This document shows, in pieces, positions 2,731-41,731 of a stretch of DNA of 44,960 bases. Position numbers and translations under genes: made by a program. The stretch's first letter is position 1; each line of letters begins with the position of its first letter. This stretch comes from Deltaproteobacteria bacterium YD0425bin50 (GTDB lineage: Bacteria; Desulfobacterota; Desulfobacteria; Desulfobacterales; YD0425bin50), in NCBI GenBank assembly GCA_002753105.1, contig PDZT01000008.1, positions 1 through 44,960 of the forward strand, read 5' to 3'. Below the pieces are notes generated by a model. The model was not told where the DNA came from. It made no database searches and saw only the letters and a list, made by a program, of their open reading frames with translations.

Positions 2731-2732
2731 TT

Positions 2733-13061: not shown

Positions 13062-13142
13062 CTTTCTCACCTTTTCATTGGTTTATTAAGAAATAACAAC
13101 GAAATAAGTTAGCATAACGCACAGCACTACTACCTATAATAA

Positions 13143-23932: not shown

Positions 23933-23972
23933 ATTCTCCTCCTTAAAATTTATAATACCCTGCAAAAAAAAC

Positions 23973-24919: not shown

Positions 24920-27900
24920 TCAATTACTCAATTCCGCTGCTAAGAGTTCAGCCAAGGCCTCATCTGATAATTCTTCGAGTTCTTTTATATGGTTTTCATG
25001 GTCGGTTTTGGTTTTGTTCTCCTCGGCACTGCTTTCAATCGAGGAAGCAATTTCAAGTACATCGCGCTCAAGATGCTCCATTAAAGCGGATATCGTTGGA
25101 AAATCAAAAAGCAACGTGGAACGCAGGTTGATTCCAATAGAAGCTGCCAGTCTGTTTTTTAACTCTACGGCGCCAAGTGAATCTAACCCAAGTTCAAATA
25201 ACCTCTGTTTTGGAGCAATTCGTTGTGATTTAGGCAATCCTAAAGCCTTTGTTACAAGTTCGCGCACATGTTTTTCAAGCAGGGCTGAGGCTTCTTTAGG
25301 AGCTAGCGCTTTTAAAATTTTTCCTAATCCACCTGTCTCAGTTAGAGATTTTGTAACGGCCAACTCAGATTCAGGCTGCAATATACTGAATAACGGTGGT
25401 ATAGACGTTCCAAAAAGGCGTTTGAGAAATAAATCCCATTTGATCGGCAATATAGCCAACGTATGCTGTTTAACCGTCAACATTTGATCCAATAGCGCCA
25501 TAGCATCTGCAGGAATGATAGGATCAATGCCATAGCTTGTAAAACGCTGTTGATCACGGTCTTCAAGGGATGCAGCCATACCCGTATTCGCCCAAGGCCC
25601 CCATTGAATACTTAAACCATGCAAACCTTGCGCTTGACGCCAAGCCATTAATGCATCCATAGCAGCATTAGCAGCCGCATAATTGCTTTGTCCCATTGAA
25701 CCGATCAATCCGGCCACAGATGAAAAACAGACAAAGAAATCCGGTTCGCGTTCAGCCATTATTTGATGTAAGTTCCAGGCTCCAGCTAATTTGGGATTCA
25801 TTACTGTTTTGAGCCGTAAAACATCTTGCTGAACCAAGACACCATCGTCTAAAACACCAGCCAGATGAAATACACCGCAAATTATCGGAAGTTGTAACAT
25901 GGCATCATTTAACGCACTAGTAAGACTTAACATATCAGCCACGTCAGCAGATTGTGTCAGTACCTTCACTCCAATTGCTGCCAGTTGTGAGATGCGTTCA
26001 TTTAGTTCAATATCAGCTTTATGGCGTCCCAAAAGCAGCACATGTTTTGCCCCCTTGTTGACTAACCACTCCATCAAACTACGACCTAAAGCTCCCAACC
26101 CACCAGTTATAAGGTAAGTGGCGTCTGATCGTATAATTTTGGGCTTATTGTCATTTTTAGGCAAGTTATATTTGGTCAGCAGTGCCTGCATCGTATTCTT
26201 GCCACGAATGGCAAGATCAGTGTTCGTATGATCAATCGCTAATAATAATGATAATTGCGTTTCTTCATCTCCGGCTGGTTTTGCTTCCAAATCTATACAT
26301 CGGCACATAAAAGACGGATGTTCTAACCTTAATACACGCGATAATCCCCATAAAGCAGCCTGAGAAGCCTGAATCCATTCACTTTTTTGCAATAAATCAC
26401 CATCTAAAACAGCCTGTGAGCCTCGAGTTACGATGGTTAAACGAGGCGTTCCCAATGTTGATGATACTATTTGCTTCAGAATAGTCACTAAAATACCACA
26501 AATATTCAGAGCATGATCAAGTGGCGTTCCATTATCACCATCAGTAATATGACAGAAAGAATCCGCCTGAAATACTATTGAATCAATATGGTTAACGTCT
26601 TGGCCAAGTTCATTAAGTAGCTGGGCTATATGTTCAGAACAGTTCAGATCAAGCTCAACATGGAAATGGGAGATGCGTCTATAATGTTGAGCATGTATTG
26701 CACAGCAGACACTGATGCCATGATTATCGAGATTTCTGAGCAATTCTGGTGTTGGGGATGATCCAGAGATGATAAGCCAATTTCTCGTTTTGGCCATAGC
26801 TGACGTTTGATACATTGATGTATCGGTATTATTATAATTGACTTCCTCCCAACGCACATAATATCCAGAGTTAGCTAAAAGATGTTCAGAAGTATTTCTC
26901 AGTAAAACCTCACGTTGAACACGGCGAGTTCTAAATCCAAGCGCCTCAGCAAGCAAACGTCCATCTTCCGTAAACAAATGCACGTCGCTGACAATATCAT
27001 CTGCAGATGAATGTTGAGCAGAAGAGGTTCCTGATGCTTCAACGTTCGTATGAAGTTTGATATGACTCCATAGCTCGTTTGTATGTTCAAGACCATACCA
27101 ATTAAAAGCTTGCACGCCAAAAGGTACAACTGCTTCATTCGGAGAAATGGTGATTATGGCTGAAATAATCTGAAGCATCGAATCAATTAGACCCGGCCCT
27201 AGATGATATTTAGGGTATCCCATTTTCTCTTTGGGTTGAACCAGACGTGCTATTACATTGTTATCACCCTGCCACAATTCTTTAACCCAACAAAATTGCG
27301 GGCCTAAAGTTATTGCCGACTGCCACATAGCGCGATAAAAGTCACGCTCAATACGCGCCAGACAAGTAATACGAAGAGAATCCAGTTCAGGTTTTTCTTC
27401 TTTATCCATATTGGCTATTGTAGAGATATTTCCTGTGGCGTGCTCTTGCCACGAAGTATGAGCACTTTCTGTATTTTCATGGGGCAGACTAATCAAGCTA
27501 AATGATCTTGCTGGAGTTTTATCTATAACAAGCTGAACTTTACGTTTCCCTTTTTCATGGATAACCAGTGGTTGCGGGAAAATAATATCTTTATAAGTAC
27601 AAGGCGTATTGCCATACAGTTCAGCAGTTGCCTCAATCAATAAAGCAATATGAGCTGCTGCCGGCAAAACAATTTGACCGAAAACGCGATGATCTTCAAT
27701 CCAAGACATAGATTGTGTTGAATACTCATTTTCAAACACCATCTTGTCTATCAATGGCGAGTCAATTTTTATTCCCGGAAAACGGTTAATGGTCTGAACT
27801 TTGGCCATCTGAGTATTGGCAGGAGTTGGAAGCCAGTAACTTTTACGAGCAAAAGGATACAGTGGTATATCCACTTTCTTATGGGTATGATTGGGATGCA

Positions 27901-30900
27901 TACTCTGATACAGAGCTTTCCAGTCTATTTGCACACCCAACTTAAACATTGTACCTAAACTTTTTAGAACTTGCTGCCAATCATCAATTTTTGGGCGTAG
28001 GCTAGGCAAAAAGATATCTTGGGCTTTATTTAGAATTTGCTGTGCCAAAGCGACAAGAACGGGTTTAGGCCCAATTTCAAGACATAAATCAACGCCATGA
28101 CTAAATAGCGACTGTACATTCGTTTGAAATTGTACTGGTGAACGGAGATGTTTTACCCAGTAATCAGGTCTGGCAATATCTTTGCCAATAAGATTTCCCG
28201 TTACATTGGAGTATATGGGGATCATCGGTAAATTGTACTTAATGCTATCTGTTATTTGGGCGAATTGATCAAGGATCGGTTCCATCATAGGCGAATGAAA
28301 TGCATGAGAAACAGGAAGCACCCGCGTTTCAATTCCATCTTTGGTCAACATAGTTTCAAGTTGTTCTAGTACACCCTGTGAACCCGATAAGACGTAATTA
28401 TTAGGCGCATTATAGCATCCAATCACCACAATATCTCCCGGTTTAACCTTTATATGACCAGAACTGACATATCGATCTATCGCTTCATCCATTTCACAAT
28501 CCGTTGCCATGACTGCAAGCATTTTACCTTTTCCCGGGGCTGAGTTAATCAGTCTTGCTCGTTCAACAATAAGACGTAAACCATCAGCTAAGGAAAACAC
28601 TCCAGCTATGCAGGCGGCAACATATTCACCAACGCTATGCCCAAGCATTGCAGTGGGTTTTACGCCCCAATTCATCCACATTTTTGCCAGAGCATATTCA
28701 ATTGTAAATACCAGCGGCTGGGTTAATTCTGTTTGAGCGAGTTGCTCACTTGAAGCAGGTGTTTCGCCATATAATAGATCAATTACGGAGTGTTGCCAGA
28801 ACAAAGATAGGATTTCATCGCATTCTTTAATAGCATTACGAAAAGTAACTTCAGTTTGGTATAGTTCACGCCCCATACCCACATATTGTGAACCCTGTCC
28901 TGTGAAAAAGAAGGCTACACGGGGTGGAGTTTGAAGTGTTCTAGCTGAATCAGAATTTTTATAGGCAGTTAAAGCCGCAATCATTTCAACTCTGTTTTTA
29001 CCTGTAAAAGTCATACGCTGAGGTAAATGTGCTCGACAAATCGATGCACTGTAACATAAATCAGCCATGCTTAACACCGGGGTTGTCGATCCAGTAGTTT
29101 CTTCTAACGACTTAAGATAAGCGATCCACCGTTTAACAGTCACTCGCAGAACTTCTTCATCTATAGCACTTAGAGGTAAGATATGATTCTGGTTAGGTAA
29201 CGGATCAGGCTGGGCAACCGGTAAATTCGTTAATACATACCTTTCCAATATGATATGTGCATTGGTGCCACCAAAACCAAAAGAACTGATACCGGCGCAA
29301 AGACGACCTGTAGTCCCTGCAGTCCATGGCTGAACGGTAACAGGAATTTGAAACGGAGTTCCGCTGAGTTTAATCATTGGATTGAGTTTATTTAGCTTTG
29401 GTTGAGGCGGGATTTCACCATAATTCATACTCAGAATGGCTTTGATAAGCTCAGCCATTCCAGCGGCAGATTCTAAATGTCCAATATTGGCTTTGACCGC
29501 ACTCAGAAAACAGGTGTTATCCATTGATCGATCATAACCCAGCACAGCTTGCAATGCTTTGACTTCTATAGGGTCGCCAAGCGCTGTCCCAGTACCATGG
29601 GTTCCAATATAAGTGATCTCTGAAGGTTTTACTCCAGAAACGGTTAAGGCATTCCTTAACACCTGTTCCTGAGCGTGTATATTCGGCGCTGTTAGCCCAT
29701 TACTCCGTCCATCCTGATTTACAGCAGTTCCTCTGATTACAGCCAAGATACGATCATTATCTCGTTGAGCATCGGATAGACGTTTTAATAACACTAAGGC
29801 ACAACCTTCGCTTCGCACATACCCATTTGCTTCTGAATCAAAGGTTTTGCAGAGTCCATCAGGTGCAAGAAAACCAGCCTGAGAAAGAGCAATACTCATC
29901 TGGGGTGACAGAATAAGATTGACACCACCAGCCAAAGCCAGTGAGCATTCACCTCGACTTAGGCTATGAAAAGCCTGATGAATCGCAACCAAAGAGGATG
30001 AACATGCTGTATCTAAAGCCATGCTTGGGCCGCGTAGATCAAACTGATATGAAATACGGTTCGCCGCTATGCAAGAGGCCTTACCTGTACCAGTATAAAC
30101 TGATAAATTATTCACATCTCCTAGTTGCCATAAACTGTAATCATCCGTGCTTATACCAATAAACACTCCGGTGTTACTGCTAGCTATATTTTGAGGAGCT
30201 AATCCAGCTCGTTCAAACAATTCCCAAGTCACTTCCAGTAACAAACGCTGCTGCGGGTCCATGATTTCAGCTTCACGAGGCATGATGCCAAACAGGCTTG
30301 AGTCGAACTTATCCACATCATTTAGAAAACCGCCACGTAACGTTGCAATTTTCCCATGTCCAGTCCCCTGTTCAAGGTTATCACGCAGGGGTGCCCATCT
30401 GTTAGACGGTAGGTCTCTGATTGCAATTCGCTTTTCAGTAAGTAATTTCCAAAAATCAGCAGGATTATCCGCTCCGGGAAAACGAAACGCCATCGCGACA
30501 ATAGCAATCTGATTGTCGCAATTTTGAGGCGAATCAATGGTACATACAGGCTCAGATTGGGTATCTAACCCGCTAAGATGTTGGCTAAGCAATTCAATAC
30601 TAGGATATTCCCATAAAATTGTATTAGAAAGTTCTGACGAGAAGTGGTACTCGTTTTTCAACCATGCTTCAAGCTCTCCTACCATCCCCAGACCTGCTCT
30701 TGAACTTAAACCGTGATCTGCAAATGGAGCTTGCGGATTTATGGCAGATTCAGGGAGATCAAGATGTCTGGCCAGAGACGAAATCAACCATGCCTTTAGT
30801 TGTAATACAGATGGCATCTTGACTGAAGTGGATATGTTTTTTGCGGTATTGGTAATATTCTGTAATGGTGCAGTACTTCGGGTTGGCCTTTCCCATATCG

Positions 30901-32647
30901 CCCATGAATCAAGGCGTCCTTGAAGATAAGCATCTCGGCATCCACGGTGTTGTATTTTACCACTAGAAGTTTTATAAACACCACCCTTTTTTAAGGCTAC
31001 GAATGCATGTAGGCTAAGATCATGTTCCTCAGCTATAGATCGCTGGACTGCCGTAAATAAAGGTTCCCAATCATCAAGTGGTTGCTTAACCTCAGCAATG
31101 ACTACTAACTTTTCAGATACATCTGTATCCACTGAAAACGCAACACATTGACCGGGAAGGATAATAGGATGACATTTTTCTACAGTAAATTCAATATCTT
31201 GGGGATAGTGATTAACACCGTCAATAATCACAAGGTCTTTTAATCTGCCGGTAAAATAAAGTTCTCCATCTTTCATAAACCCAATATCACCCGTAGAAAG
31301 AAACGGACCCTGCTCAGGTGCATCGGCCAGACGACATCCAAAAGTTTTCTGAGTCTCTTCAGGACGACGAAAATAACCGATAGCAACACTGGGATCAGAA
31401 ATCCATATTTCACCGACTTCACCGTCGTTGCATCGAGTTTTTGTATTGACGTTGACAATGACAAGCTGTGTATTCGGATGCATCTTCCCACAGCTTACAA
31501 TCCAACGTGTTCCTCGGTCCTGATCAGCATCTACTTCAACTATACGAGATTCATATTCTAATGCCACTGCATCAACATGACATATCTTTAACTCTTGACC
31601 ATGAGGCCTAGTTGAGACAACTAGGGTTGTTTCAGCCATACCATAGGCCGGATATAAAGCCTCGGGTCGAAAACCACATTGCCCAAATGTTGATATAAAA
31701 CGAAGAATAGTTTCTCGGCGAACAGGTTCGGCTGCATTACTGGCTACTCTCATACAACTTAAATCTAATTCTTTTTTCTGTTCATCTGTGATCTTTTCAA
31801 TGCAACGCTCAAAAGCAAAATTAGGGGCTTGGGTATTGGTTCCGCGGTAACGGTCAATTGCTTTAAGCCATACATAAGGATTTTTGATAAATGTTACGGG
31901 GGACATGATATAAGATGGTGTGCCATTATATAAAGGGGTAAGCAGTCCATCAACCAAACCATAATCATGGTAATTTGGCATCCATACGATGGATTTGCTA
32001 TCTTCTTTGTAATACCATAATTGTTTGGTATAGGTAAGATGATATAAAATATTGGCATGCGTCAACATGACACCTTTAGGCGTACCCGTAGAACCTGAAG
32101 TATATTGCAAATATGCCAAGTCATCAGACGTAGGCGTTATAGTAAGCTCTTGCCATAAGTCAGCCTTATCGCTTGTAACAGTATCAGTTGCCAGTCGGTA
32201 AAGGCTATCAAACTCCGAGCCTTTCATCTGATCCGATATGGCCTCAATAGTTAATACCAGAATTGCCCCAGCATCTTTAACTATCGCCATAAGCCTTGGC
32301 AGAGTACGTTTTAGACGAGTTGGTTCAGGCGGTGGTGCTGGAATTGGAACTACACCAGCATAAAGACATCCAAAAAAGCCAATTAGAAAATCTATACCTG
32401 TTGGATAGATGATAAGCGCCCGGTCACCATATGATATCTTATCCCTTATGGAACCTGCGACAGCACGGGAGGCTAAATCAAGCTGTCCATAAGTTATGGT
32501 AACATATTCGTCTATACCATTTTTGAGAAACGAATAAGCGTGTTTGTCGGGTGTTACTTGCGCCCGAAATTTAAGAAGATCACCGACTGAAGCGCAATCA
32601 TCAATTCTTTTAAGCAGACTTTTTTGGGTTGTCTTCATTACATCCAT
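24920..32647 (-). CDS. Type I modular polyketide synthase FAAL-ACP-KS-AT-DH-KR-ACP
   Basis: The 2,575-aa product activates a fatty acid and extends it once. Domains in order: fatty acyl-AMP ligase (~10-600; YTSGSTGTPKG near 186, PNYHDYGLVDG); ACP1 (~635-730; Ser in HGLSSRAG near 646); ketosynthase (~735-1170; active Cys in DTACSSS near 882, His in THGTGT and NIGHLES); acyltransferase (~1255-1560; GHSVGEY near 1338, HAFH near 1450, a malonyl-CoA signature); dehydratase (~1610-1900; HxxxGxxxxP near 1653, DSMLQ near 1821); ketoreductase (~2175-2380; TGGLGALG near 2180, the LDD motif of B-type KRs near 2266, Tyr in SNYAAAN near 2322); and ACP2 (Ser in LGLDSLG near 2491). There is no enoylreductase and no thioesterase, so the expected product is an alpha,beta-unsaturated acyl chain left on ACP2 for a partner to release. 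The divergent FAAL-ACP and ACP-PlsC genes are likely partners. The ATG at 32,647 is the most upstream; Met4 is an alternative. Confidence 0.93.
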   Translation of the reverse strand: MDVMKTTQKSLLKRIDDCASVGDLLKFRAQVTPDKHAYSFLKNGIDEYVTITYGQLDLASRAVAGSIRDKISYGDRALIIYPTGIDFLIGFFGCLYAGVVPIPAPPPEPTRLKRTLPRLMAIVKDAGAILVLTIEAISDQMKGSEFDSLYRLATDTVTSDKADLWQELTITPTSDDLAYLQYTSGSTGTPKGVMLTHANILYHLTYTKQLWYYKEDSKSIVWMPNYHDYGLVDGLLTPLYNGTPSYIMSPVTFIKNPYVWLKAIDRYRGTNTQAPNFAFERCIEKITDEQKKELDLSCMRVASNAAEPVRRETILRFISTFGQCGFRPEALYPAYGMAETTLVVSTRPHGQELKICHVDAVALEYESRIVEVDADQDRGTRWIVSCGKMHPNTQLVIVNVNTKTRCNDGEVGEIWISDPSVAIGYFRRPEETQKTFGCRLADAPEQGPFLSTGDIGFMKDGELYFTGRLKDLVIIDGVNHYPQDIEFTVEKCHPIILPGQCVAFSVDTDVSEKLVVIAEVKQPLDDWEPLFTAVQRSIAEEHDLSLHAFVALKKGGVYKTSSGKIQHRGCRDAYLQGRLDSWAIWERPTRSTAPLQNITNTAKNISTSVKMPSVLQLKAWLISSLARHLDLPESAINPQAPFADHGLSSRAGLGMVGELEAWLKNEYHFSSELSNTILWEYPSIELLSQHLSGLDTQSEPVCTIDSPQNCDNQIAIVAMAFRFPGADNPADFWKLLTEKRIAIRDLPSNRWAPLRDNLEQGTGHGKIATLRGGFLNDVDKFDSSLFGIMPREAEIMDPQQRLLLEVTWELFERAGLAPQNIASSNTGVFIGISTDDYSLWQLGDVNNLSVYTGTGKASCIAANRISYQFDLRGPSMALDTACSSSLVAIHQAFHSLSRGECSLALAGGVNLILSPQMSIALSQAGFLAPDGLCKTFDSEANGYVRSEGCALVLLKRLSDAQRDNDRILAVIRGTAVNQDGRSNGLTAPNIHAQEQVLRNALTVSGVKPSEITYIGTHGTGTALGDPIEVKALQAVLGYDRSMDNTCFLSAVKANIGHLESAAGMAELIKAILSMNYGEIPPQPKLNKLNPMIKLSGTPFQIPVTVQPWTAGTTGRLCAGISSFGFGGTNAHIILERYVLTNLPVAQPDPLPNQNHILPLSAIDEEVLRVTVKRWIAYLKSLEETTGSTTPVLSMADLCYSASICRAHLPQRMTFTGKNRVEMIAALTAYKNSDSARTLQTPPRVAFFFTGQGSQYVGMGRELYQTEVTFRNAIKECDEILSLFWQHSVIDLLYGETPASSEQLAQTELTQPLVFTIEYALAKMWMNWGVKPTAMLGHSVGEYVAACIAGVFSLADGLRLIVERARLINSAPGKGKMLAVMATDCEMDEAIDRYVSSGHIKVKPGDIVVIGCYNAPNNYVLSGSQGVLEQLETMLTKDGIETRVLPVSHAFHSPMMEPILDQFAQITDSIKYNLPMIPIYSNVTGNLIGKDIARPDYWVKHLRSPVQFQTNVQSLFSHGVDLCLEIGPKPVLVALAQQILNKAQDIFLPSLRPKIDDWQQVLKSLGTMFKLGVQIDWKALYQSMHPNHTHKKVDIPLYPFARKSYWLPTPANTQMAKVQTINRFPGIKIDSPLIDKMVFENEYSTQSMSWIEDHRVFGQIVLPAAAHIALLIEATAELYGNTPCTYKDIIFPQPLVIHEKGKRKVQLVIDKTPARSFSLISLPHENTESAHTSWQEHATGNISTIANMDKEEKPELDSLRITCLARIERDFYRAMWQSAITLGPQFCWVKELWQGDNNVIARLVQPKEKMGYPKYHLGPGLIDSMLQIISAIITISPNEAVVPFGVQAFNWYGLEHTNELWSHIKLHTNVEASGTSSAQHSSADDIVSDVHLFTEDGRLLAEALGFRTRRVQREVLLRNTSEHLLANSGYYVRWEEVNYNNTDTSMYQTSAMAKTRNWLIISGSSPTPELLRNLDNHGISVCCAIHAQHYRRISHFHVELDLNCSEHIAQLLNELGQDVNHIDSIVFQADSFCHITDGDNGTPLDHALNICGILVTILKQIVSSTLGTPRLTIVTRGSQAVLDGDLLQKSEWIQASQAALWGLSRVLRLEHPSFMCRCIDLEAKPAGDEETQLSLLLAIDHTNTDLAIRGKNTMQALLTKYNLPKNDNKPKIIRSDATYLITGGLGALGRSLMEWLVNKGAKHVLLLGRHKADIELNERISQLAAIGVKVLTQSADVADMLSLTSALNDAMLQLPIICGVFHLAGVLDDGVLVQQDVLRLKTVMNPKLAGAWNLHQIMAEREPDFFVCFSSVAGLIGSMGQSNYAAANAAMDALMAWRQAQGLHGLSIQWGPWANTGMAASLEDRDQQRFTSYGIDPIIPADAMALLDQMLTVKQHTLAILPIKWDLFLKRLFGTSIPPLFSILQPESELAVTKSLTETGGLGKILKALAPKEASALLEKHVRELVTKALGLPKSQRIAPKQRLFELGLDSLGAVELKNRLAASIGINLRSTLLFDFPTISALMEHLERDVLEIASSIESSAEENKTKTDHENHIKELEELSDEALAELLAAELSN

Positions 32648-32793
32648 AATTATGTTAGCCCCTCATTTTTATTAATATTAAGGAATAGTGTGTTAATATA
32701 AATAAAAATATTTTCTTTTTCTCACGTTTTTTATGCTGAATAAGGAACTGGTAGCACTTAAAAATTGAGATTATAAATTGGTTTTCTTTGAAC

Positions 32794-32808
32794 AGTTAGG
32801 AGCTAACT
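32794..32808. promoter_or_regulatory. Operator-like dyad
   Basis: AGTTAG-GAG-CTAACT is a perfect 6-bp inverted repeat with a 3-base spacer. It overlaps the -10 box of the proposed PKS promoter and the start site just after it, the position where a repressor would block transcription. No regulator gene is seen nearby. Confidence 0.35.
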
Positions 32809-32834
32809 ATATAACTAATCAACTTTCATTGCAA
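32806..32834 (-). promoter_or_regulatory. Candidate sigma70 promoter for the PKS gene
   Basis: On the minus strand, TTGCAA (32,834-32,829) is followed after 17 bases by TATAGT (32,811-32,806). The -35 box matches consensus at 4 of 6 positions and the -10 box at 5 of 6. It would give a ~150-base 5' leader before the ATG at 32,647. In such AT-rich DNA, chance matches are common. Confidence 0.4.
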
Positions 32835-32934
32835 CAAAATTTTTTTATTACACAATAGTTTATACCTCAGTTCTCTTAACACATTTTAATGATTTTTCAA
32901 TAAATTTTTTACCATAAGGCGAGGCATTTTTTAG

Positions 32935-32961
32935 TTGACACGATCAGGAATCTGAAATAAT
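32935..32961 (+). promoter_or_regulatory. Candidate promoter for the ATPase/lipid operon
   Basis: A perfect TTGACA -35 box (32,935-32,940) is followed by AATAAT with a 15-base spacer, or by TAATTT with 17. Spacer or box is imperfect in each case. The position, about 70-90 bases before the first reading frame of the plus-strand genes, is appropriate. Confidence 0.35.
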
Positions 32962-33027
32962 TTTCGCTTGTTAACCAAATTAACTGATAGATTTAATATC
33001 TGAACACCTAATATATTTTATAAGCAA

Positions 33028-35103
33028 TTGTATCATCATGGAGGTTCCCCCATATTTCTGGAAATTATCTTTACAACATATTTAGGGGTAAGACTTTATG
33101 AACATTTCAAAAAAAAGCGTACTGCTGACCTGAAGCCATATAGTAAAAAGGTATGTACTGCTGACCTGCAGGTGAAACACTACAACATCGAAAATCGAAA
33201 ATCGAAAATCGAAAATAAAATGGCATATGCGGATGACAAGCAGGTAAAGCAATATAAACACTATGCCAATACCAGTTTAATATCCATGGGTTTTACCGGA
33301 ATGGGTAAATTCGTTCCCGGTCTAACCTTGATCGGTTTGGCGACTTATCTCTACAGTTTTATTCCCTATATCAAAGATGTTGAAAAAACGTTAGTTGAAG
33401 ATCGTAAAGTCAATGTGGATGTTCTGTTTTTTGTGGGCAATATTTTGACTATTGGCTTGGCTCAGTATTTTACAGCATCTTTTAGTATTTTTGTCAGATA
33501 CGCCGCCAAAATGAAACTGGCTGAAGCCAAGGATACCTCTAAAAAAATTATTACCGATGCCTTTACTCAGCTTCCGCAAACCGTATGGATTTTATCTGAT
33601 CAGGTTGAACTAGAAATCCCTTTAAAGCAGATCAAAACCAATGATGTTGTGGTCGTAAGAACCGGAGAGGTCATTCCTGTTGATGGAATGATCACTCAAG
33701 GCACGGCATGTATTGATCAAAGTGCATTGACTGGAGAATCGCAGCCTGCCGAAAAGGGTCATGGTGAATATGTTTACGCCAATACTGTTATCCTGAGCGG
33801 TCGAATTTATATCCGGGTTGAGAATTCAGGTGAGTCAACTATGGCCGCCAGAATCAGCATGATTCTGCTCCATTCCACAGATTATAAATCCAAAGTTCAA
33901 TTGAAGGGTGAAGAATGGGCAGATAAAGCGATCGTTCCTATGCTTGCGGGGACTGCCGTTATCCTGCCAACTCTTGGGCCAGTAGCGGCCGCTGTTTTCA
34001 TCAACAGTCATATTGGCAATCGTATTCGGCTGTTGGCGCCTTTTGGAACACTTAAACACATTACTCTTGCGACTCAGAAGGGTATTTTAGTCAAGGATGG
34101 CAGGGCACTTGAAAGTTTATGTGAGGTGGATACGATTATTTTTGATAAGACTGGCACCTTGACCACGTTAGAACCTGAAGTCAAGCAGATTATTTCCTGT
34201 AGTTTGTATCAGGAAAATGAAATATTATATTTTGCGGCTATTGCTGAGGCCAAACTGACCCATCCCATTGCCAGAGCCATTATAAATAGGAACAAGCTTG
34301 AAAATTCCGGTTGGACTGAGCATGATGCATTTCATCATTCAAGATACGAGATCGGTCATGGGATTACCGCTTTTATAGGAAATCAGATTGTCAGAGTAGG
34401 CAGCATCCGTTTTATTGAGGGTGAATCAATCCGTATTCCTGAAGAAATCAGAGAGGTTGTGACTGAAGCTCATGAAATAGGCAATACTATAGTTTTAGTT
34501 GCATTGGCTGATCAACTGATCGGTGCCATCGAATTGCATCCCCAAATTCGACCCGAAGTAAAAAATATGATTACCCGACTGCGGACTCAAGGTATCAAGC
34601 ACTTTGCCATTGTATCAGGCGATCATCGTTATCCAACCCAAAAGCTGGCTGAAGAATTGGGTATTGATGAGTTTTATTGCAATATTCTTCCCGAAGGCAA
34701 AGCGAGTATTGTAGAGCAAATGCAGCAAGAAAAGCGAACTGTATGTTTTATTGGAGATGGTATTAATGACGCCATTGCTATGAAAAAAGCCAATGTTTCC
34801 ATTTCATTGGCCGGTTCTGCTACGATTGCAACGGATGCGGCTGAAGTTGTTTTTTTGGACGGTACCCTTTTGCCTTTGTGTGATTTTTTTGATATTGCTC
34901 AACAATTGGATAAGAATCTTCAAAAAAGTCTCAAATTAACTTTAGCGCCGGGTGTCATTAATCTTTGCGGCGCTTTTATTTTTAATTTCAGCATTTTTAC
35001 TTCGCAGATGGTCAGCTCAACTTTCAGTTGGATTGCAATTAAGGATGTGATGAAGCCGCTCCAAGACAGACGAAAACTGATTTCCCATGATAAAACTGCT
35101 TGA
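33028..35103 (+). CDS. P-type ATPase, P1B-like but lacking the CPx metal motif
   Basis: This 691-aa membrane ATPase has the catalytic core of heavy-metal P-type pumps: TGES in the actuator domain (~235), the phosphorylated Asp in DKTGT (~372), the P1B-typical HP motif in LTHPIARAI (~410) and GDGINDAIAM (~576). The helix that in P1B pumps carries CPC (or SPC/TPC) reads RLLAPFGTLKH (~336), so the transport cysteines are gone. There is no N-terminal metal-binding GMTCxxC domain. Transmembrane segments are visible near 85-110, 130-165, 285-315 and 640-675, fewer than usual. The start is uncertain. The frame opens with TTG at 33,028 without a good ribosome binding site (GGAGG lies inside the frame at 33,040). 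An ATG at 33,220 would remove the first 64 residues, including FLEIIFTTYLGVRLYEHF and a 7-bp microsatellite. It leads the plus-strand lipid operon; its substrate is unknown. Confidence 0.82.
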   Translation: MYHHGGSPIFLEIIFTTYLGVRLYEHFKKKRTADLKPYSKKVCTADLQVKHYNIENRKSKIENKMAYADDKQVKQYKHYANTSLISMGFTGMGKFVPGLTLIGLATYLYSFIPYIKDVEKTLVEDRKVNVDVLFFVGNILTIGLAQYFTASFSIFVRYAAKMKLAEAKDTSKKIITDAFTQLPQTVWILSDQVELEIPLKQIKTNDVVVVRTGEVIPVDGMITQGTACIDQSALTGESQPAEKGHGEYVYANTVILSGRIYIRVENSGESTMAARISMILLHSTDYKSKVQLKGEEWADKAIVPMLAGTAVILPTLGPVAAAVFINSHIGNRIRLLAPFGTLKHITLATQKGILVKDGRALESLCEVDTIIFDKTGTLTTLEPEVKQIISCSLYQENEILYFAAIAEAKLTHPIARAIINRNKLENSGWTEHDAFHHSRYEIGHGITAFIGNQIVRVGSIRFIEGESIRIPEEIREVVTEAHEIGNTIVLVALADQLIGAIELHPQIRPEVKNMITRLRTQGIKHFAIVSGDHRYPTQKLAEELGIDEFYCNILPEGKASIVEQMQQEKRTVCFIGDGINDAIAMKKANVSISLAGSATIATDAAEVVFLDGTLLPLCDFFDIAQQLDKNLQKSLKLTLAPGVINLCGAFIFNFSIFTSQMVSSTFSWIAIKDVMKPLQDRRKLISHDKTA
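33187..33214 (+). repeat. 7-bp microsatellite (ATCGAAA x4) within the ATPase frame
   Basis: Four perfect ATCGAAA units lie in the proposed 5' coding part of the ATPase gene, encoding an Asn-Ile-Glu-Asn-Arg-Lys-type linker. Seven is not a multiple of three, so gain or loss of one unit would shift the frame. Just upstream, GTACTGCTGACCTG occurs twice (33,119 and 33,155). Confidence 0.75.
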
Positions 35104-35177
35104 CCATCTATTCTCTTACAAAAACCGGATACAGCAGCAAAAGAAAAGCATCCTTTGTTGGCGTGAAAGGCAACAGC

Positions 35178-36086
35178 ATGCAAGAACCAAAACTGTTTCA
35201 GAAATTGTGCGAAAAACTAACACGATTAACCAATGTCCATGAGTTGAATGAAAACACCCTGTTGGATAATCTGGTGCTCGATTCAATTACCGTGGCAGAA
35301 CTGTCTAATTTCATCCGGTCAACCTATCAACGCAACATTAAACTTAAAGATTATGTAAACAGGGGGAATAGCTTGGCAGAGTTGCATTTGGCGATTCTGA
35401 CATGCACTGAAAATGAACTTGATGCTTGCTCCCGCAGTTTTGAAGGGTATCAGCAAAACATGATGGCATGGTTCCTTGTTCTGATGCTGAATCTGTTCAA
35501 TAGATCATTTTTTCGTATCAAAGTTCATGGCCATCAGATGATAGACCCGACGATGCAATATATTTTTTTTGCAAACCATGAAAGTCATCTTGATCCATTT
35601 TGGATTTATTGCTGTTTGCCACGGCCAATTCAAAAAAAAGTGCGAACCATCGCCAAAAAAGAGCATTGGGATAACTGGACAGGCTCTTTTCTATCTGGAT
35701 TAATTGGAGGAATTCCTATTGATAGAACAGGAGATGTGAGTGAGGTTTTGCACTACACTTTGAAACAGATTCAGCAGGGCAGTTCTATTATTATTTTTCC
35801 TGAAGGAACCCGGACTGGCAATGGAAAAATGCAGCCTTTTAAATCGGGAATCGTCTGGTTAGCCAGAGAAAGCAAAATTCCTTTGCTACCGGTAGGTATT
35901 CAAGGCGCATTTGAGGCCTATCCCCGTTCTCAATCATTACCGAATTTTAAATTTAGGAGAAATCACATTCATTTACAATTTGGCAATCCAATCATCACTG
36001 ATTCCACAGAATTTCAGAATCAGACGGATCAAACCATTCTTCACTTTTTACAAAAAAAGATTGAAGCACTCAGGGGGCTTGAGTAA
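35178..36086 (+). CDS. ACP-PlsC fusion (1-acyl-glycerol-3-phosphate acyltransferase-like)
   Basis: The 302-aa protein joins an acyl carrier domain to a lysophospholipid acyltransferase. Residues ~1-85 are ACP-like, with the phosphopantetheine Ser in LVLDSITVAEL near 35. Residues ~100-302 are a PlsC domain: HX4D motif NHESHLDP near 134, GGIPIDRTG near 178, FPEGTRTG near 207, and LLPVGIQGAF later. Normal PlsC enzymes take acyl-CoA or acyl-ACP in trans; the fusion suggests the acyl chain is delivered on its own carrier. The ATG at 35,178 has GAAAGG 8 bases upstream. An upstream TTG at 35,100 would overlap the ATPase stop and has no such signal. It lies between the ATPase and the FAAL-ACP genes in one operon; its acyl donor is probably made by the FAAL and/or the PKS. 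The product lipid is unknown. Confidence 0.85.
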   Translation: MQEPKLFQKLCEKLTRLTNVHELNENTLLDNLVLDSITVAELSNFIRSTYQRNIKLKDYVNRGNSLAELHLAILTCTENELDACSRSFEGYQQNMMAWFLVLMLNLFNRSFFRIKVHGHQMIDPTMQYIFFANHESHLDPFWIYCCLPRPIQKKVRTIAKKEHWDNWTGSFLSGLIGGIPIDRTGDVSEVLHYTLKQIQQGSSIIIFPEGTRTGNGKMQPFKSGIVWLARESKIPLLPVGIQGAFEAYPRSQSLPNFKFRRNHIHLQFGNPIITDSTEFQNQTDQTILHFLQKKIEALRGLE

Positions 36087-36113
36087 CACTTTGAGCATTT
36101 TTCGGAGAGAACA

Positions 36114-38156
36114 ATGACAGATGTTTTAAGTAAAGTCTTTCAGGATTTTGTTCAACACTACCCTGATAAAATATGTTTTACATGGGTAGATGAGGAAGGT
36201 AAGGATCAGAAACAACTGACTTATCAGGATGTGTGGGAACATGGTTTAACCCTGCTGTATATTCTGCAAACCAAATATAAAGTCACAGCCGGAGATAGAT
36301 TGGTGCTCGCTTTTTTACCGGGAATTGATTTTTTCCTTACCTGTGTTGCCTGTATTCTAGGGGGGATTGTTCTTGTTCCTGTTTATCCGGTGACACCGCA
36401 AAATGCTAAAAGACAGTTGGCTCACATTCACAACATCGCCAGAGCTTTCGGGAGTCATTATATTCTATGCGATCCATTGATCAAAAAACTGGTCAATTTC
36501 ACTCGTATGCTTTCTTTTAATTTTTCAGGCAAATGGCTGGTGCTTCCTTCCAACACCCATAAATTTCAACAAGCCACCTGTTATCATGGCAAACCTGAAG
36601 ACGTGATTTTGTTTCAATATAGCTCAGGCTCAACCGGTGAACCCAAAGCGATTGCTCTGACGAACAAAAATATCATGTCTCAGTTAGACTATAATCGAGA
36701 GGTTTTAAAGCTCAATCATGATTCCCGAGGTGTTTTATGGGTTCCACCGTATCATGATCTGGGATTAATCAGCGGTATGCTGAACTGTCTGGTTGGTCAT
36801 TGTTCTATGTGGATGATGTCGCCCATGACATTTTTAAAAGCGCCACAGATTTGGTTTGAAGTCATGTCGCGCGTCAGAGCTACCCATACTGCGGCTCCGG
36901 ATTTTGCCTTTGCGTACTGTATAAAAAAAATTCCGGTTTCATTAAGAAAAAACTGGGATTTGTCATCACTTGAGGTGTTGATGAGTGCTGCTGAACCTAT
37001 TCGATCAGATATCATGGAAGAATTTTTCAAAGAATTTGCTGAAACACAGCTAAAACGAGACTGTTTTACTCCGGCTTATGGACTTGCTGAGCATTCTGTT
37101 GGGGTTACTGTCGGAAAATTTCAGACGTTAACCATTTCAAAAACTGCTCTTGAAAAGGACAAACGCGCGATACTGATTGATGATGGTTCAGAGAATCACG
37201 ATATTTTGAAAATTGCCGGATGCGGCGAGCCATCAGAGCGTTTTCAGCTTCGGATTGTCAATCCTGAAACCAATGCGGTGTTGTCAGAAGATCAGGTGGG
37301 TGAAATTTGGGTTTCTTCTGACTGTAAGGCGGATTTTTATTTTAATACGCCTGAAACAACACACCAATTATTGCAGGCCTGCCTTGAGCAGGATGATGGA
37401 TATCGTTATCTTCGTACCGGAGATTTAGGTTTTATTCATGAAAAAGTTTTATACGTGACTGGAAGATTAAAGGATATTATCATTATTCGGGGCCGAAATA
37501 TTTATCCTCTGGAAATTGAGGAGACCATCCGTGATTTAGACCCTATGATTCGTTCAGGGGGTATCACTGCCTTCAGCATGATGAATGAAAGCCTAAACGA
37601 AGAAGGAGTTGGCCTTTTTGTTGAGTTGAACCAGAACACAATTGATCAACGCAGAGCAATACCATTGATAGAAAAAATCACTGTTGCAGTACAGCGCGAA
37701 CATAACTGTCCCTGCGTTATGATCGTTTTAGGAAAGCGACATCTGGTCAAAAAAACCTCCAGCGGTAAAGTCAAACGCAATTTATGTCGTGAGATTGCTC
37801 ATCGTGCTAACTTGGATTCACTGCCTGAAGTGCTTTATATCCACAAAAAATCCTCGCTTGCTTCTGTTTCTCATGAACAACCTGTATGTAAGCATATGTT
37901 TAAACAACTATCCTCAGAGGAACACCATATTTTTTCTGTTATAAAAGTAAATATTTGCAGTATTTATCAGCTTGATGATATGGAGATTGATTTGAACTCG
38001 CATCTGTCAGAGTTGGGTATAAGTTCGCTGCAACTTGTTGAATTTACAGACAGAATAAATAAGGCTTTTGTAAAAAAATTGAAACCAGATGATTTGCTAA
38101 AAGCCAAAACTATACGGGAAATTGTTAACATGGTTGCATCCACTCAAAAATTATGA
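36114..38156 (+). CDS. Fatty acyl-AMP ligase with C-terminal ACP
   Basis: This is a 680-aa soluble adenylate-forming enzyme. Residues ~1-570 match FAALs: YSSGSTGEPKA near 169, VPPYHDLGLISGM, MSPMTFLKAP, TPAYGLAEHSVG, YLRTGDLGF and the Lys-bearing KKTSSGKVKR near 550. Residues ~610-680 are an ACP with Ser in LGISSLQLVEF near 636. FAALs make acyl-AMP from free fatty acid and ATP and pass the chain to an ACP rather than CoA. Having its own ACP, it probably loads itself and donates to the adjacent ACP-PlsC or to the divergent PKS. GGAGAG precedes the ATG, and the start lies 27 bases after the acyltransferase stop. The FAAL within the PKS is a distinct paralogue, so the locus has two acyl-activation entry points. 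Confidence 0.92.
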   Translation: MTDVLSKVFQDFVQHYPDKICFTWVDEEGKDQKQLTYQDVWEHGLTLLYILQTKYKVTAGDRLVLAFLPGIDFFLTCVACILGGIVLVPVYPVTPQNAKRQLAHIHNIARAFGSHYILCDPLIKKLVNFTRMLSFNFSGKWLVLPSNTHKFQQATCYHGKPEDVILFQYSSGSTGEPKAIALTNKNIMSQLDYNREVLKLNHDSRGVLWVPPYHDLGLISGMLNCLVGHCSMWMMSPMTFLKAPQIWFEVMSRVRATHTAAPDFAFAYCIKKIPVSLRKNWDLSSLEVLMSAAEPIRSDIMEEFFKEFAETQLKRDCFTPAYGLAEHSVGVTVGKFQTLTISKTALEKDKRAILIDDGSENHDILKIAGCGEPSERFQLRIVNPETNAVLSEDQVGEIWVSSDCKADFYFNTPETTHQLLQACLEQDDGYRYLRTGDLGFIHEKVLYVTGRLKDIIIIRGRNIYPLEIEETIRDLDPMIRSGGITAFSMMNESLNEEGVGLFVELNQNTIDQRRAIPLIEKITVAVQREHNCPCVMIVLGKRHLVKKTSSGKVKRNLCREIAHRANLDSLPEVLYIHKKSSLASVSHEQPVCKHMFKQLSSEEHHIFSVIKVNICSIYQLDDMEIDLNSHLSELGISSLQLVEFTDRINKAFVKKLKPDDLLKAKTIREIVNMVASTQKL

Positions 38157-38182
38157 CGTAACCCTATGAAAAAGAGCAGGTC

Positions 38183-38842
38183 ATGTCGATCAGTTTAATT
38201 ATCAAGGCAAGTTTATGTTGGATTTTAATTTATGCGGTTTTGCTACTTCTATGCCAGTATGCTTTTAAACAGAGCCAAAGTCCGATTTATATTGGTGCAA
38301 TTCTAAAAATTTTGATTATTATCCATAATCTTATCCTGTTGTATCTTATCCTAAAGGGTCCTTCTCCAGTAATCATGTCCGATTTTTTAGGTATATGGTC
38401 TTGTCTGTCGATAGGCTATTATGTGGTTGATACTTTTTTACAAATCATGGGCAAACCGAGTATTAATGATATGGGAGATTCCAAACGGTATAGTCTGATT
38501 CACCACTTTACAGTTGTGCCTGTTTTTGTAATGGTCATCCACTGGTCTGAATTTTTATTGCCCTTTGTATGGCTCCGTTTGCCGGAAATTTCTTCATTAT
38601 GCAAGCATATCAGGGTGTGGGCCTTAAAAAATGCAGAAACCATTCCTTTTCAATTCAGACAACAGCTCAATCAATTCTGTTTGAAGTTGTGGTTGAGTAT
38701 TGAGTTGATCACTGTTCTATTGTTATTGGCTTGGCTTGTATTTCATTTTTCTATTAAGGCGCTTATAGTATTTGCCTTGTGCCTGCCGTTGCTGTTTGAG
38801 ACATGGCGTCTGGCTGCTGACAGAAACAACTCAAGAAGCTGA
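38183..38842 (+). CDS. TLC-like multi-pass membrane protein
   Basis: This is a 219-aa integral membrane protein with about six hydrophobic helices (ASLCWILIYAVLLLLCQYAF, ILKILIIIHNLILLYLIL, FLGIWSCLSIGYYVVDTFL, IHHFTVVPVFVMVIHW, LKLWLSIELITVLLLLAWL, ALIVFALCLPLLF). The GYYVVDTFLQI segment followed ~20 residues later by SLIHHFTVV matches the TRAM/LAG1/CLN8 (TLC) pattern, whose His-His pair is part of the acyl-transfer site in eukaryotic ceramide synthases. Similarity is by motif and topology only. It is the fourth gene of the operon, 27 bases after the FAAL-ACP stop, with an AGCAGG just before its ATG. A role in acyl transfer or in moving the lipid product across the membrane is plausible. Confidence 0.65.
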   Translation: MSISLIIKASLCWILIYAVLLLLCQYAFKQSQSPIYIGAILKILIIIHNLILLYLILKGPSPVIMSDFLGIWSCLSIGYYVVDTFLQIMGKPSINDMGDSKRYSLIHHFTVVPVFVMVIHWSEFLLPFVWLRLPEISSLCKHIRVWALKNAETIPFQFRQQLNQFCLKLWLSIELITVLLLLAWLVFHFSIKALIVFALCLPLLFETWRLAADRNNSRS

Positions 38843-38874
38843 AATGGCGATAAATCATAATCGTTTCAATTTAC

Positions 38875-38980
38875 TATAGTTTTTCAGAAAAGAATTTTGG
38901 CAAGGCAGCAGGGAGGAAGGTGTATATTTTAATACATCGACGACCGATAACGCAGCAAAAAACTTTTCTGGAAAACTATA
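38875..38980 (-). mobile_element. MITE-like element, family A, divergent copy 2
   Basis: This 106-bp element has inverted termini TATAGTTTTTCAGAAAA and TTTTCTGGAAAACTATA (16 of 17 match). On the minus strand its core reads GCGTTATCGGTCG...TATTAAAATATA...CCTCCCT..TGCCTTG, which aligns with the other family A copies although the termini differ. It lies 33 bases after the TLC gene and 31 bases before the AAA-ATPase gene. Confidence 0.65.
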
Positions 38981-39011
38981 TAAATACAAATTATAAAAAT
39001 AAGGGAAATAT

Positions 39012-40595
39012 ATGCGGCGTTTTCATTCCTATGGTCCAGTAAACAGCAAATACCATTTTTGTATTGAGCGTAAAGCAATAATCGAAACATGTTCAGAACA
39101 ACTTGTGGGGATTCAAGAAGAAGGCGGGCATTATTTTACTATATGGGCACCTCGTCAGACAGGCAAAACATGGCTGATGCATCAGGTAAAGAAAACAATT
39201 GAAAAAGAATACCCTGATCGTTTTATTATTGGCATGATGTCAATGCAGGGCGTAATTTTGCAAGACAAAGATTCCCAAAACGAGTTGCTGTCTTGGATGC
39301 CCAAGCTTATGAAGAATGGATTTAATCTTAAAATAAACCCACCCCAAACATGGCAGGAATGGATCAATTATTTTGATAGAAGCGAAAAATTTTTTGAAAA
39401 ACCGGTTCTATTATTTATTGATGAATTTGATGCGCTGCCTTCTCAAATTATTGATCTCTGGATTACCCTCTTTCGGGATATCTATTTGAATAGATCGAAT
39501 TATCTGCTTCACGGTCTTGCACTGATTGGGGTAAGAGCCGTGTTAGGCGTGGAAAGTCTGCGGGGCTCGCCATTTAATATCCAGAGATCCTTGCATGTAC
39601 CGAATTTTACCAGAGCGGAAGTGGTTGATTTATATCAGCAATATCAAACAGAAAGCGGACAAAAAATTGAGTCGCAAGTTGTGAAAACGATTTTTGAGGT
39701 AACTTGCGGTCAACCCGGTCTGGTCTGCTGGTTTGGCGAGCTTCTCACCGAAACCTACAATACAGACAAGACCAAAGCTATTGATTGGGATTTATGGGAA
39801 GAAGTGTATGAAGCCGCACTGCATGTCGAATGGAATAATACCATTTTAAACTTAGTGAAAAAAGTACGGACAGGTTATGTAGAACAGGTTCTGGCTCTAT
39901 TTGCCAGTTCAGAAGTTCAATTTTCTGTAGATGCGGATTGGTGCGCGTACTTGTATTTAAACGGAGTGATCACTTCGCAAACGCTTTTGGACATTTCAGG
40001 TAAAAGACGAACGATTTGCCGTTTTGCATCGCCTTTTATCCAGCTTCGGCTTTATAATGCCCTGACCAACGATTTAATCGTCACCGGTTTCCCAATTTTG
40101 TCTCTGGAGCCTTTAGATCGTCTAACGGATGTATTTGATGCTGCTGAAATAAACCTGCCGGCTCTGTTGGAACGCTATAAAGCCTATCTGAAACGACTAA
40201 AAACTAAGGGCTTAAATCCATGGAAAGCACAGCCACGCCGCAGTGATTTACATTTAACCGAAGCTGTTGGGCATTTCCATTTATACGCATGGATCAGGGA
40301 TGCGATTGGAAGACAGTGCGTGGTCAGTCCCGAATTCCCAACCGGCAATGGACGAGTTGATTTGCACATCAGATGCGGGCATCAAAAAGGAATTATTGAA
40401 GTCAAAAGTTTTACTAACCAATTTGAAATTCAGAAATCCAAAGAACAAGCTGCTCATTATGCCCAACAATTAGGTTTAAACAGCGTAACCCTAGCCCTGT
40501 TTGCGCCATTAGAAGAAGATATCCTGGATCAGCTTTCTTCTGATGAAAGAATAGAAGGCATGAGCGTACATACTGTGGCTATTGGATGGAACTAA
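39012..40595 (+). CDS. AAA-like ATPase with C-terminal PD-(D/E)XK nuclease fold
   Basis: This 527-aa protein belongs to a family of AAA-like ATP-binding proteins that often occur in many copies per genome. Walker A is APRQTGKTW (~46), Walker B VLLFIDEFDALP (~131), and a sensor-like segment is GLALIGVRAV (~172). The middle (~215-390) is helical. The C-terminal region has the PD-(D/E)XK nuclease pattern: Asp in GRVDLHI (~446) and the E-x-K in IIEVKSF (~460), with a later Gln-rich helix (KSKEQAAHYAQQLG). AAGGGA precedes the ATG. It is unrelated to lipid synthesis and is flanked by MITE-like elements on both sides, so it may be a transferred cassette that separated the cdsA-like gene from the rest of the operon. 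Its biological role is not established. Confidence 0.85.
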   Translation: MRRFHSYGPVNSKYHFCIERKAIIETCSEQLVGIQEEGGHYFTIWAPRQTGKTWLMHQVKKTIEKEYPDRFIIGMMSMQGVILQDKDSQNELLSWMPKLMKNGFNLKINPPQTWQEWINYFDRSEKFFEKPVLLFIDEFDALPSQIIDLWITLFRDIYLNRSNYLLHGLALIGVRAVLGVESLRGSPFNIQRSLHVPNFTRAEVVDLYQQYQTESGQKIESQVVKTIFEVTCGQPGLVCWFGELLTETYNTDKTKAIDWDLWEEVYEAALHVEWNNTILNLVKKVRTGYVEQVLALFASSEVQFSVDADWCAYLYLNGVITSQTLLDISGKRRTICRFASPFIQLRLYNALTNDLIVTGFPILSLEPLDRLTDVFDAAEINLPALLERYKAYLKRLKTKGLNPWKAQPRRSDLHLTEAVGHFHLYAWIRDAIGRQCVVSPEFPTGNGRVDLHIRCGHQKGIIEVKSFTNQFEIQKSKEQAAHYAQQLGLNSVTLALFAPLEEDILDQLSSDERIEGMSVHTVAIGWN

Positions 40596-40631
40596 GGAGT
40601 TTCCAGACACGGGCTATCGTTTCGTTAATTG

Positions 40632-40773
40632 CTAAGTACACAGAACGCTAAATACGCATCCGATTTTCTGGATACCGGCTTTCGCCGGTATGACGATTGA
40701 CAGGATCGTCCGATCGTCATGCCGACGAAAGTCGGTATCCAGAAATAGAAACGAATTTGTTTCCTGTACTAAG
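40632..40773. mobile_element. MITE-like element, family B, copy 2
   Basis: This 142-bp element is bounded by CTAAGTACACAGAACG and CTTAGTAC-type inverted termini (right end ...TTTCCTGTACTAAG). TAAATACGCATC next to the left end matches the copy at 23,973. Its interior contains a separate inverted repeat, TTTCTGGATACCGGCTTTCG...CGAAAGTCGGTATCCAGAAA with CGATCGTCATG-type arms, similar to a short palindrome common in bacterial intergenic regions. Confidence 0.65.
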
Positions 40774-40779
40774 TCCAAC

Positions 40780-40858
40780 AGGTAACCTGATATTTCAAAT
40801 TGATTGAAAACAAAGATTGACAAATTATCAGGTAAACTTTTTACGTGACAATCATTTT
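40780..40858. repeat. Short repeat also found at 24,447-24,516
   Basis: The segment AACAGGTAACCTGATA...GATTGAAAACAAAGATTGA...ATTATCAGGTAAACTTTTTACGTGAC resembles 24,447-24,516 along its length and contains the internal inverted pair CCTGATA/TATCAGG. It lies immediately before the cdsA-like gene. Confidence 0.45.
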
Positions 40859-40879
40859 TTATTTGGTTAATATATATAC

Positions 40880-41731
40880 ATGCTGCTTAATTTTTATCTT
40901 TTTTTTATAGTTCTGACCAGTACTGCCCTGTTGATATCATGGATAAAACATTCCCACAATTTTATCAAACGGTCCATTATCCTGCTGGTGTTGTTACACG
41001 TTGTATGCCTTGCGTTGTGGGGTGGAATTTATACATTTTCATTGTTAATCAGCATGATTTTGTTATCAGGGGTTTATGAACTGGCTAAACAATACAGCCC
41101 ATCTCCATTCTTGGGAATCCTATACACTGCTGTTTTTCTGGGAGTGCTTTTTCTTTTTATCCCCTATTTTATCTACCTGATACCTTTGTTTTTATTGGTA
41201 TCAATTTATAGTTTTAGGGGGTCTTCCCGACAAATTTTTCATTACAGTTTTTTTATCCTGTTCTCTTTTTTCATTTTAGGGATCAGTGCTGTGAGTTTGA
41301 TTGAACTATACCGTTTAAATAGTAACCATCTGATTCTTTTGCTGTTGCTGATACAATTAAACGATGCGTTTGCTCTGGTTGGCGGGAGCCTATATGGGAA
41401 ATGGCATATTTTTCCAAAGATTAGCCCAAAAAAAACTCTGGAGGGTTATCTCAGTGGTGGCGTCATGATGATTGTCGGAATCGTCATTCTTCATACGTTC
41501 ATTCCAGTAATAAAGGGAAATGATTTGTGGCAGGATGGAATTCTTTTTCTTTACCTGTTTTTTTTCGCTAACGCAGGTGATCTATTGTTTTCAAGCATTA
41601 AGCGCAAATTGGACATTAAGGATTTTAGTTCATTTTTACCCGGACACGGCGGTATTTTAGATCGATTTGGCAATATTTTTTTTGCAGCGCCCGGTTGGTA
41701 TATCCTGATTGATCGAGGAATTATCTGGTAA
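40880..41731 (+). CDS. cdsA: Phosphatidate cytidylyltransferase (CdsA-like)
   Basis: The 283-aa integral membrane protein has about eight hydrophobic helices. Its C-terminus carries the CDP-diglyceride synthase signature almost intact (residues ~238-265: SSIKRKLDIKDFSSFL, then PGHGGILDR), but the acidic residue that should close it (DRxD) is Gly (DRFGN). The earlier LNDAFALVGGSLYGKW...ISPKKTLEGYLSGG segment also matches. Family members convert phosphatidic acid and CTP to CDP-diacylglycerol. The locus supplies a PlsC-type acyltransferase, so this may activate the phosphatidic acid it makes. The missing acidic residue could mean changed substrate use or lower activity. No ribosome binding site is evident before the ATG. 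A MITE-like element starts 20 bases after the stop. Confidence 0.8.
   Translation: MLLNFYLFFIVLTSTALLISWIKHSHNFIKRSIILLVLLHVVCLALWGGIYTFSLLISMILLSGVYELAKQYSPSPFLGILYTAVFLGVLFLFIPYFIYLIPLFLLVSIYSFRGSSRQIFHYSFFILFSFFILGISAVSLIELYRLNSNHLILLLLLIQLNDAFALVGGSLYGKWHIFPKISPKKTLEGYLSGGVMMIVGIVILHTFIPVIKGNDLWQDGILFLYLFFFANAGDLLFSSIKRKLDIKDFSSFLPGHGGILDRFGNIFFAAPGWYILIDRGIIW

Follow-up and report, generated by a model that had tools for sequence, protein, structure and literature searches.

Aas is an acyl-ACP synthetase/2-acyl-GPE acyltransferase that pairs with LplT. A related logic appears in the aryl polyene clusters, in which a lysophospholipid acyltransferase is believed to attach the carrier-bound chain to a lipid anchor (PMC8253772). 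Here we analyze a locus of Deltaproteobacteria bacterium YD0425bin50 (GCA_002753105.1, contig PDZT01000008.1) that encodes a FAAL-ACP protein next to an ACP-PlsC protein; the whole 44,960-nt stretch that was studied is referred to below as the window. The best reading of its sequence is that acyl chains would pass from acyl-AMP to ACP to PlsC without CoA, in a split version of a type of system already known.

Results

Layout of the locus

A minus-strand PKS gene lies divergent from a plus-strand row that runs in the order P-type ATPase, ACP-PlsC, FAAL-ACP, membrane protein, AAA_35 protein, CdsA-like protein and alpha/beta hydrolase (Table 1), the two units being separated by ~380 bp. Open frames are present at the positions given in the original prediction, whose genes, domains, CPx-less ATPase and CdsA-like protein all stood up to analysis; its TLC label for the membrane protein did not. 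Intergenic gaps are below 80 bases from the ATPase through the membrane protein and 150-290 bases downstream of it. The core catalytic motifs are intact in sequence in the ligases, carriers, acyltransferase and PKS, and promoter and terminator scans of the locus gave chance level only. The AAA_35 gene, which had been regarded as inserted, may or may not belong to the set. A weakly similar AAA_35-like gene adjoins another PKS of the same genome (L234:9468-12713, G000:C75), and since such genes thus stand beside two different PKS genes, the presence of this one may not be accidental.

Table 1. Coordinates of the genes and domains of the locus, in window positions
Feature	Positions	Strand	Remarks
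One-module reducing PKS	24920..32647	-	2575 aa; FAAL-ACP-KS-AT-DH-KR-ACP
PKS FAAL domain	~32647-30848	-	
PKS first ACP	~30790-30548	-	
PKS KS	30514-29396	-	Cys-His-His intact
PKS AT	28912-27962	-	GHSxG with HAFH, malonyl-type
PKS DH	27751-26903	-	HxxxGxxxxP with D
PKS KR	26122-25589	-	KR motifs intact
PKS C-terminal ACP	25267-25070	-	
P1B-like P-type ATPase, clade without CPx cysteine	33028..35103	+	likely start ATA 33052
ACP-PlsC	35100..36086 as open frame, probable start 35178	+	ACP ~35178-35411; PlsC 35514-35900
FAAL-ACP didomain	36114..38156	+	ACP 37944-38135
Membrane protein, 219 aa	38183..38842	+	no detectable homologues; TLC-like by eye only
AAA_35 ATPase-domain protein	39012..40595	+	domain match
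Second, divergent CdsA-like protein	40880..41731	+	CTP_transf_1 match
Small alpha/beta hydrolase	41885..42601	+	weak Palm_thioest match

Elsewhere in the window, 259-8048 encodes two large proteins, both with multiple glycosyltransferase domains (as many as four GT2 stretches in one chain), 10251-13070 a smaller BiPBP_C/beta-propeller protein, 13878-19427 a protein of 1849 aa that combines a VWA domain with BiPBP_C repeats, and 20063-23965 a surface-type protein in which Lcl_C and PKD domains and eight Flg_new_2 (InlB B-like) repeats were found together with a weak Peptidase_C13 match.

The PKS and the FAALs

Domain order and intact motifs agree with the assignment of the minus-strand gene as a one-module reducing PKS with its own FAAL and without a thioesterase. 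The carrier serine is present in both of its ACPs, and domain searches of the protein found no ER, TE or ST domain. FAAL models rank high in NCBIfam for both FAALs of the locus. The proposed identity of the stand-alone FAAL-ACP was borne out by its best solved-structure matches (3kxw, 7r7e-g, FadD32 and FadD23), which are FAALs and not FACLs; it aligns over its full length with 3kxw, as would be compatible with the FAAL-specific insertion that blocks CoA use, and its carrier serine sits in the motif LGISS. A search of 291 order genomes revealed no close relative of this protein; the best match scored 307 bits and the leading FAAL-ACP matches were 29-35% identical.

The ACP-PlsC protein

The fusion of PlsC to an ACP was confirmed by an alignment of its whole length with accepted ACP-PlsC tails and by the fold model. 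The ACP itself falls under the Pfam cut-off (17.6 of 20.8 bits), with its carrier serine in LDS, and the PlsC domain carries the motifs NHESHLD and PEGTR. In both domains the protein can be aligned to the C-terminal part of AMP-ligase-ACP-PlsC proteins, and the carrier DS as well as NHxxxxD and PEGxR are kept; the predicted structure (pLDDT 74.6) has the PlsC 5kym as its first match and ACP folds lower down. To judge from the sequence, translation probably starts at ATG 35178 and not at TTG 35100.

A profile of ACP plus PlsC, run against 326 phylum genomes, detected the tail in 26, the window's genome included. In the other 25 it is part of longer frames of 590-1450 aa, most of them above 800, and the 330-aa frame of the window is the only short one, its ligase being encoded in the next gene instead of fused. 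By architecture, membership in the fused AMP-ligase-ACP-PlsC family was accordingly rejected. The five fused proteins that were inspected (L010, L099, L100, L107 and L227) have an AMP-ligase in front of ACP-PlsC. The best fused homologue, L227, from a gammaproteobacterial-side genome, is an AMP-binding, PP-binding, Acyltransferase protein encoded right after an MFS gene in PKS-free surroundings. Its ligase matches FAALs weakly (32 bits), which suggests that PlsC does not usually have a FAAL as its partner. ACP-PlsC-like matches also came from records of Fusobacterium and Ilyobacter, where two of the matching genes bear the name AMP-binding protein, and a search of IMG/VR with ACP-PlsC gave no match. 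We read the AMP-ligase-ACP-PlsC proteins, from their domain content and the MFS neighbor, as Aas-type enzymes with a built-in carrier. On these alignments, ACP-PlsC itself is not a new idea, a homologous tail occurring fused elsewhere.

The membrane protein and the CdsA-like protein

The claim that the 219-aa membrane protein is TLC-like was unsupported by every search. No Pfam family matched it up to E=10, the TLC profile included; no match was found among PDB sequences or plasmids and no credible homologue in the 291 order genomes; and a single-sequence structure model (mean pLDDT 62) gave no PDB fold match. By eye, the pattern GYxxxD..HH..SExxxPFxxLR makes a TLC-like protein possible. The CdsA-like assignment, on the other hand, held, with a CTP_transf_1 domain at 5.1e-37. 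The aspartates of GDxxxS and of HGGxxDR are retained, and the signature reads HGGILDRFG versus HGGMLDRID in TmCdsA, the last Asp being replaced by Gly. Another CdsA, encoded on contig C143 of the same genome, is the stronger match (204 versus 128 bits), so that the window copy appears to be spare for a special use.

The P-type ATPase

With the P1B heavy-metal ATPases (TIGR01525) the window ATPase shares the actuator and HAD domains and the motifs TGES, DKTGT, HP and GDGxND of the P-type core, and it passes the TIGR01525 model for heavy metal translocating P-type ATPases (369.7 versus a cut-off of 346.25). No HMA domain was found in it. A GGAGGT followed by ATA occupies 33040-33054, the place at which the proteins of relatives start with Met; the true start codon may be ATA 33052, or this ATA may be an ATG that was mutated or misread. 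The absence of a cysteine at the CPx site of M4, as originally proposed, was verified for the window ATPase and 24 relatives, whereas thirteen control ATPases have CPC (five) or DYSC (eight) at this site. The order also contains another P1B-like group (L056-L061, L066 and L067), in which DYSC replaces CPx.

The clade is well set apart, with 29 strong matches above 400 bits in the 291 order genomes versus at most 272 bits for other P1B ATPases; two clade copies cut by contig ends score lower. It is present in 17 genomes of the order. A scan of contigs with the ATPase alignment picked up generic P-type motifs and yielded four clear clade members, and it says little on distribution. Clade neighbors are very mixed. 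A type I KS is found at a distance of up to 10 kb from 5 of 31 copies, versus 0.62 expected (p ~4e-4), and from 4 of 30 when the window is left out, versus 0.60 expected (p ~0.003); these p-values are rough, being computed from rounded genome sizes and the KS rows listed, for copies that are not fully independent. Two copies, one in the source genome itself (L075:1-3954, G000:C207) and one in G175 (L077:9050-15474, G175:C11), are encoded immediately after an NRPS-like A-(MT)-T-reductase gene. The two genomes belong to different families, and the neighbors are 70% and 75% identical between them while 40% is usual in the clade, which suggests that the NRPS-ATPase pair moves together. At a further locus (L082:8985-12239, G251:C4) the CPx-less ATPase is fused to a C-terminal FAD-dependent oxidoreductase-like stretch and is followed by AMP-ligase and PKS genes.

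Conservation of the set

The absence of a conserved neighborhood had been set as the condition that would count against the original interpretation, and as far as 291 order genomes show, the nearest of them from other families, the neighborhood is indeed not conserved. Searches that started from ACP-PlsC found no second copy of the whole set in 116 relatives of the order, 395 genomes of the phylum or 229 genomes of the class of G669, nor did searches that started from the ATPase, the membrane protein or FAAL-ACP in the 291 order genomes each. Because the source genome is the sole member of its family among the genomes searched, the nearest others being of other families, a recent or lineage-bound set could be missed. 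A search of open-licence papers found none joining FAAL and PlsC.

Discussion

The stand-alone FAAL, by its family and motifs, would convert free fatty acid to acyl-AMP and load its own ACP. The chain could then reach the ACP of ACP-PlsC by direct FAAL loading or by transfer from carrier to carrier, and PlsC, if it acts as its fused homologues suggest, would join it, with no need for CoA, to an acceptor of the lyso-phospholipid or glycerophosphate type through an ester bond. The divergent FAAL-PKS may supply a chain one malonate longer, as the enoyl or beta-hydroxy form, making it a plausible second acyl donor. More speculatively, activation of the product may fall to the divergent CdsA, and transport of the product or a precursor to the CPx-less ATPase. 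The CoA-free hand-over to a PlsC acceptor is thus the part of the original interpretation that fared best, as the natural reading of adjacent FAAL-ACP and ACP-PlsC genes when ligase, ACP and PlsC are fused elsewhere. Its novelty, its TLC component and the test for a conserved neighborhood fared worse, and the statement that the locus fits no known pathway is weakened by finding the same logic in Aas and in aryl polyene clusters (PMC8253772).

That all of these genes form one dedicated lipid-acylation locus is a tentative conclusion that could well be correct. The alignment of ACP-PlsC with the AMP-ligase-ACP-PlsC tails, motifs included, argues for it, as do the adjacency of FAAL-ACP and ACP-PlsC on one strand, the closeness of this FAAL to true FAALs, the position of the L227 fused protein after an MFS gene, which resembles the LplT-Aas pair, the spare CdsA and a PKS without TE. 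Against it stand the weak match of the L227 ligase to FAALs and the small alpha/beta hydrolase, on its sequence a possible candidate for the releasing enzyme, which could free the PKS product instead. Moreover, the set occurs in no second genome, so that the argument for a shared function of the two divergent units comes from their adjacency only. They might instead be independent neighbors, with the FAAL-PKS belonging to a secondary-metabolite pathway for a lipid-tailed polyketide whose remaining genes lie elsewhere, and FAAL-ACP and ACP-PlsC constituting an Aas-like unit for fatty-acid salvage or phospholipid repair. The source genome has six further ketosynthase loci and a third FAAL (on contig C127), many PKS/NRPS lines in the order start with a FAAL, which is most like the PKS-borne one, and the L227 fused protein has no PKS nearby. 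However, a one-module PKS that has no release domain must pass its chain to an acceptor, the neighboring unit encodes an acyltransferase equipped with a carrier, and the units face each other across a short gap; we consider independence doubtful, if far from implausible. A still different function, in which the PKS product serves as a pigment or protective acyl group, is put on an outer-membrane lipid anchor and is exported, as in aryl polyene synthesis, seems very improbable. In outline the parts match, i.e. acyl-ACP synthetase, extra ACPs, a lysophospholipid acyltransferase (ApeD) and a transporter (PMC8253772), but genes for type II KS/KR/DH, an RND exporter, LolA/LolB-like proteins and DUF3261 are absent from the window, and a single module extends the chain by just one unit if it does not iterate. 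As cluster types, both aryl polyene and olefin synthase were rejected, the former for parts missing in the window and the latter for missing parts.

For the ATPase, a function alongside carrier-protein pathways is more probable than a metal one. That it is an ordinary metal pump, located here by chance, we regard as unlikely: the CPx-site cysteine is absent in 25 of 25 members, type I KS genes lie nearby in excess of expectation with or without the window, and the NRPS-ATPase pair is kept in two families. On the other side, the protein passes the TIGR01525 cut-off and clade neighbors are very mixed. Furthermore, the miuraenamide cluster contains two genes named heavy metal translocating P-type ATPase, which may or may not be clade members; deleting the region with one of them had no effect on yield, and deleting the region with the other raised it (PMC10051162). 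Because it has many other neighbors, the clade is not specific to the pathway proposed here. The more far-reaching idea that its members pump lipids or carrier-protein-made products, and that the one in the window cooperates with a CoA-independent path from FAAL-ACP to ACP-PlsC by which the PKS-extended chain enters membrane lipids, strikes us as quite unlikely. The CPx-less clade recurring beside PKS/NRPS genes would constitute a testable class of product or lipid pumps. If the joint pathway is right, fatty acids and polyketide-extended chains would enter membrane lipids by carrier hand-over alone, and FAALs would be used where other bacteria use acyl-ACP synthetases.

Comparison with known systems

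The window ATPase and its clade differ from the P1B heavy-metal ATPases, whose core they share, by the lack of the CPx cysteine, by having no HMA domain that was found and by recurring near PKS/NRPS genes. The cyanobacterial OLS likewise has a FAAL-ACP followed by a one-module PKS (PMC11837247), but its module is KS-AT-KR-ACP with a sulfotransferase-thioesterase end, while the window PKS has a DH and neither ST nor TE. In mycobacterial FAAL-PKS lipids, a FAAL loads the PKS and the chain ends on a lipid (PMC11837247); in the window, where no MmpL/Pap-type genes were seen, the proposed acceptor enzyme is a PlsC that carries an ACP of its own. Aryl polyene clusters (ApeD, ApeE/F, ApeH, ApeM) share the logic of lipid-anchor acylation (PMC8253772) and differ in their type II iterative enzymes and RND/Lol-type export, none of which is encoded in the window. 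As in Aas/LplT and the AMP-ligase-ACP-PlsC proteins, the locus combines an acyl-AMP ligase, a carrier and PlsC in one system, and with the latter proteins it shares the fusion of PlsC to its own ACP. Unlike Aas, it is divided over two genes and uses as ligase a FAAL that carries an ACP; it lacks an MFS lyso-lipid flippase and has a PKS and an ATPase as neighbors. The FAAL-ACP and ACP-PlsC pair is most readily understood as an Aas-like system that has been split and re-equipped.
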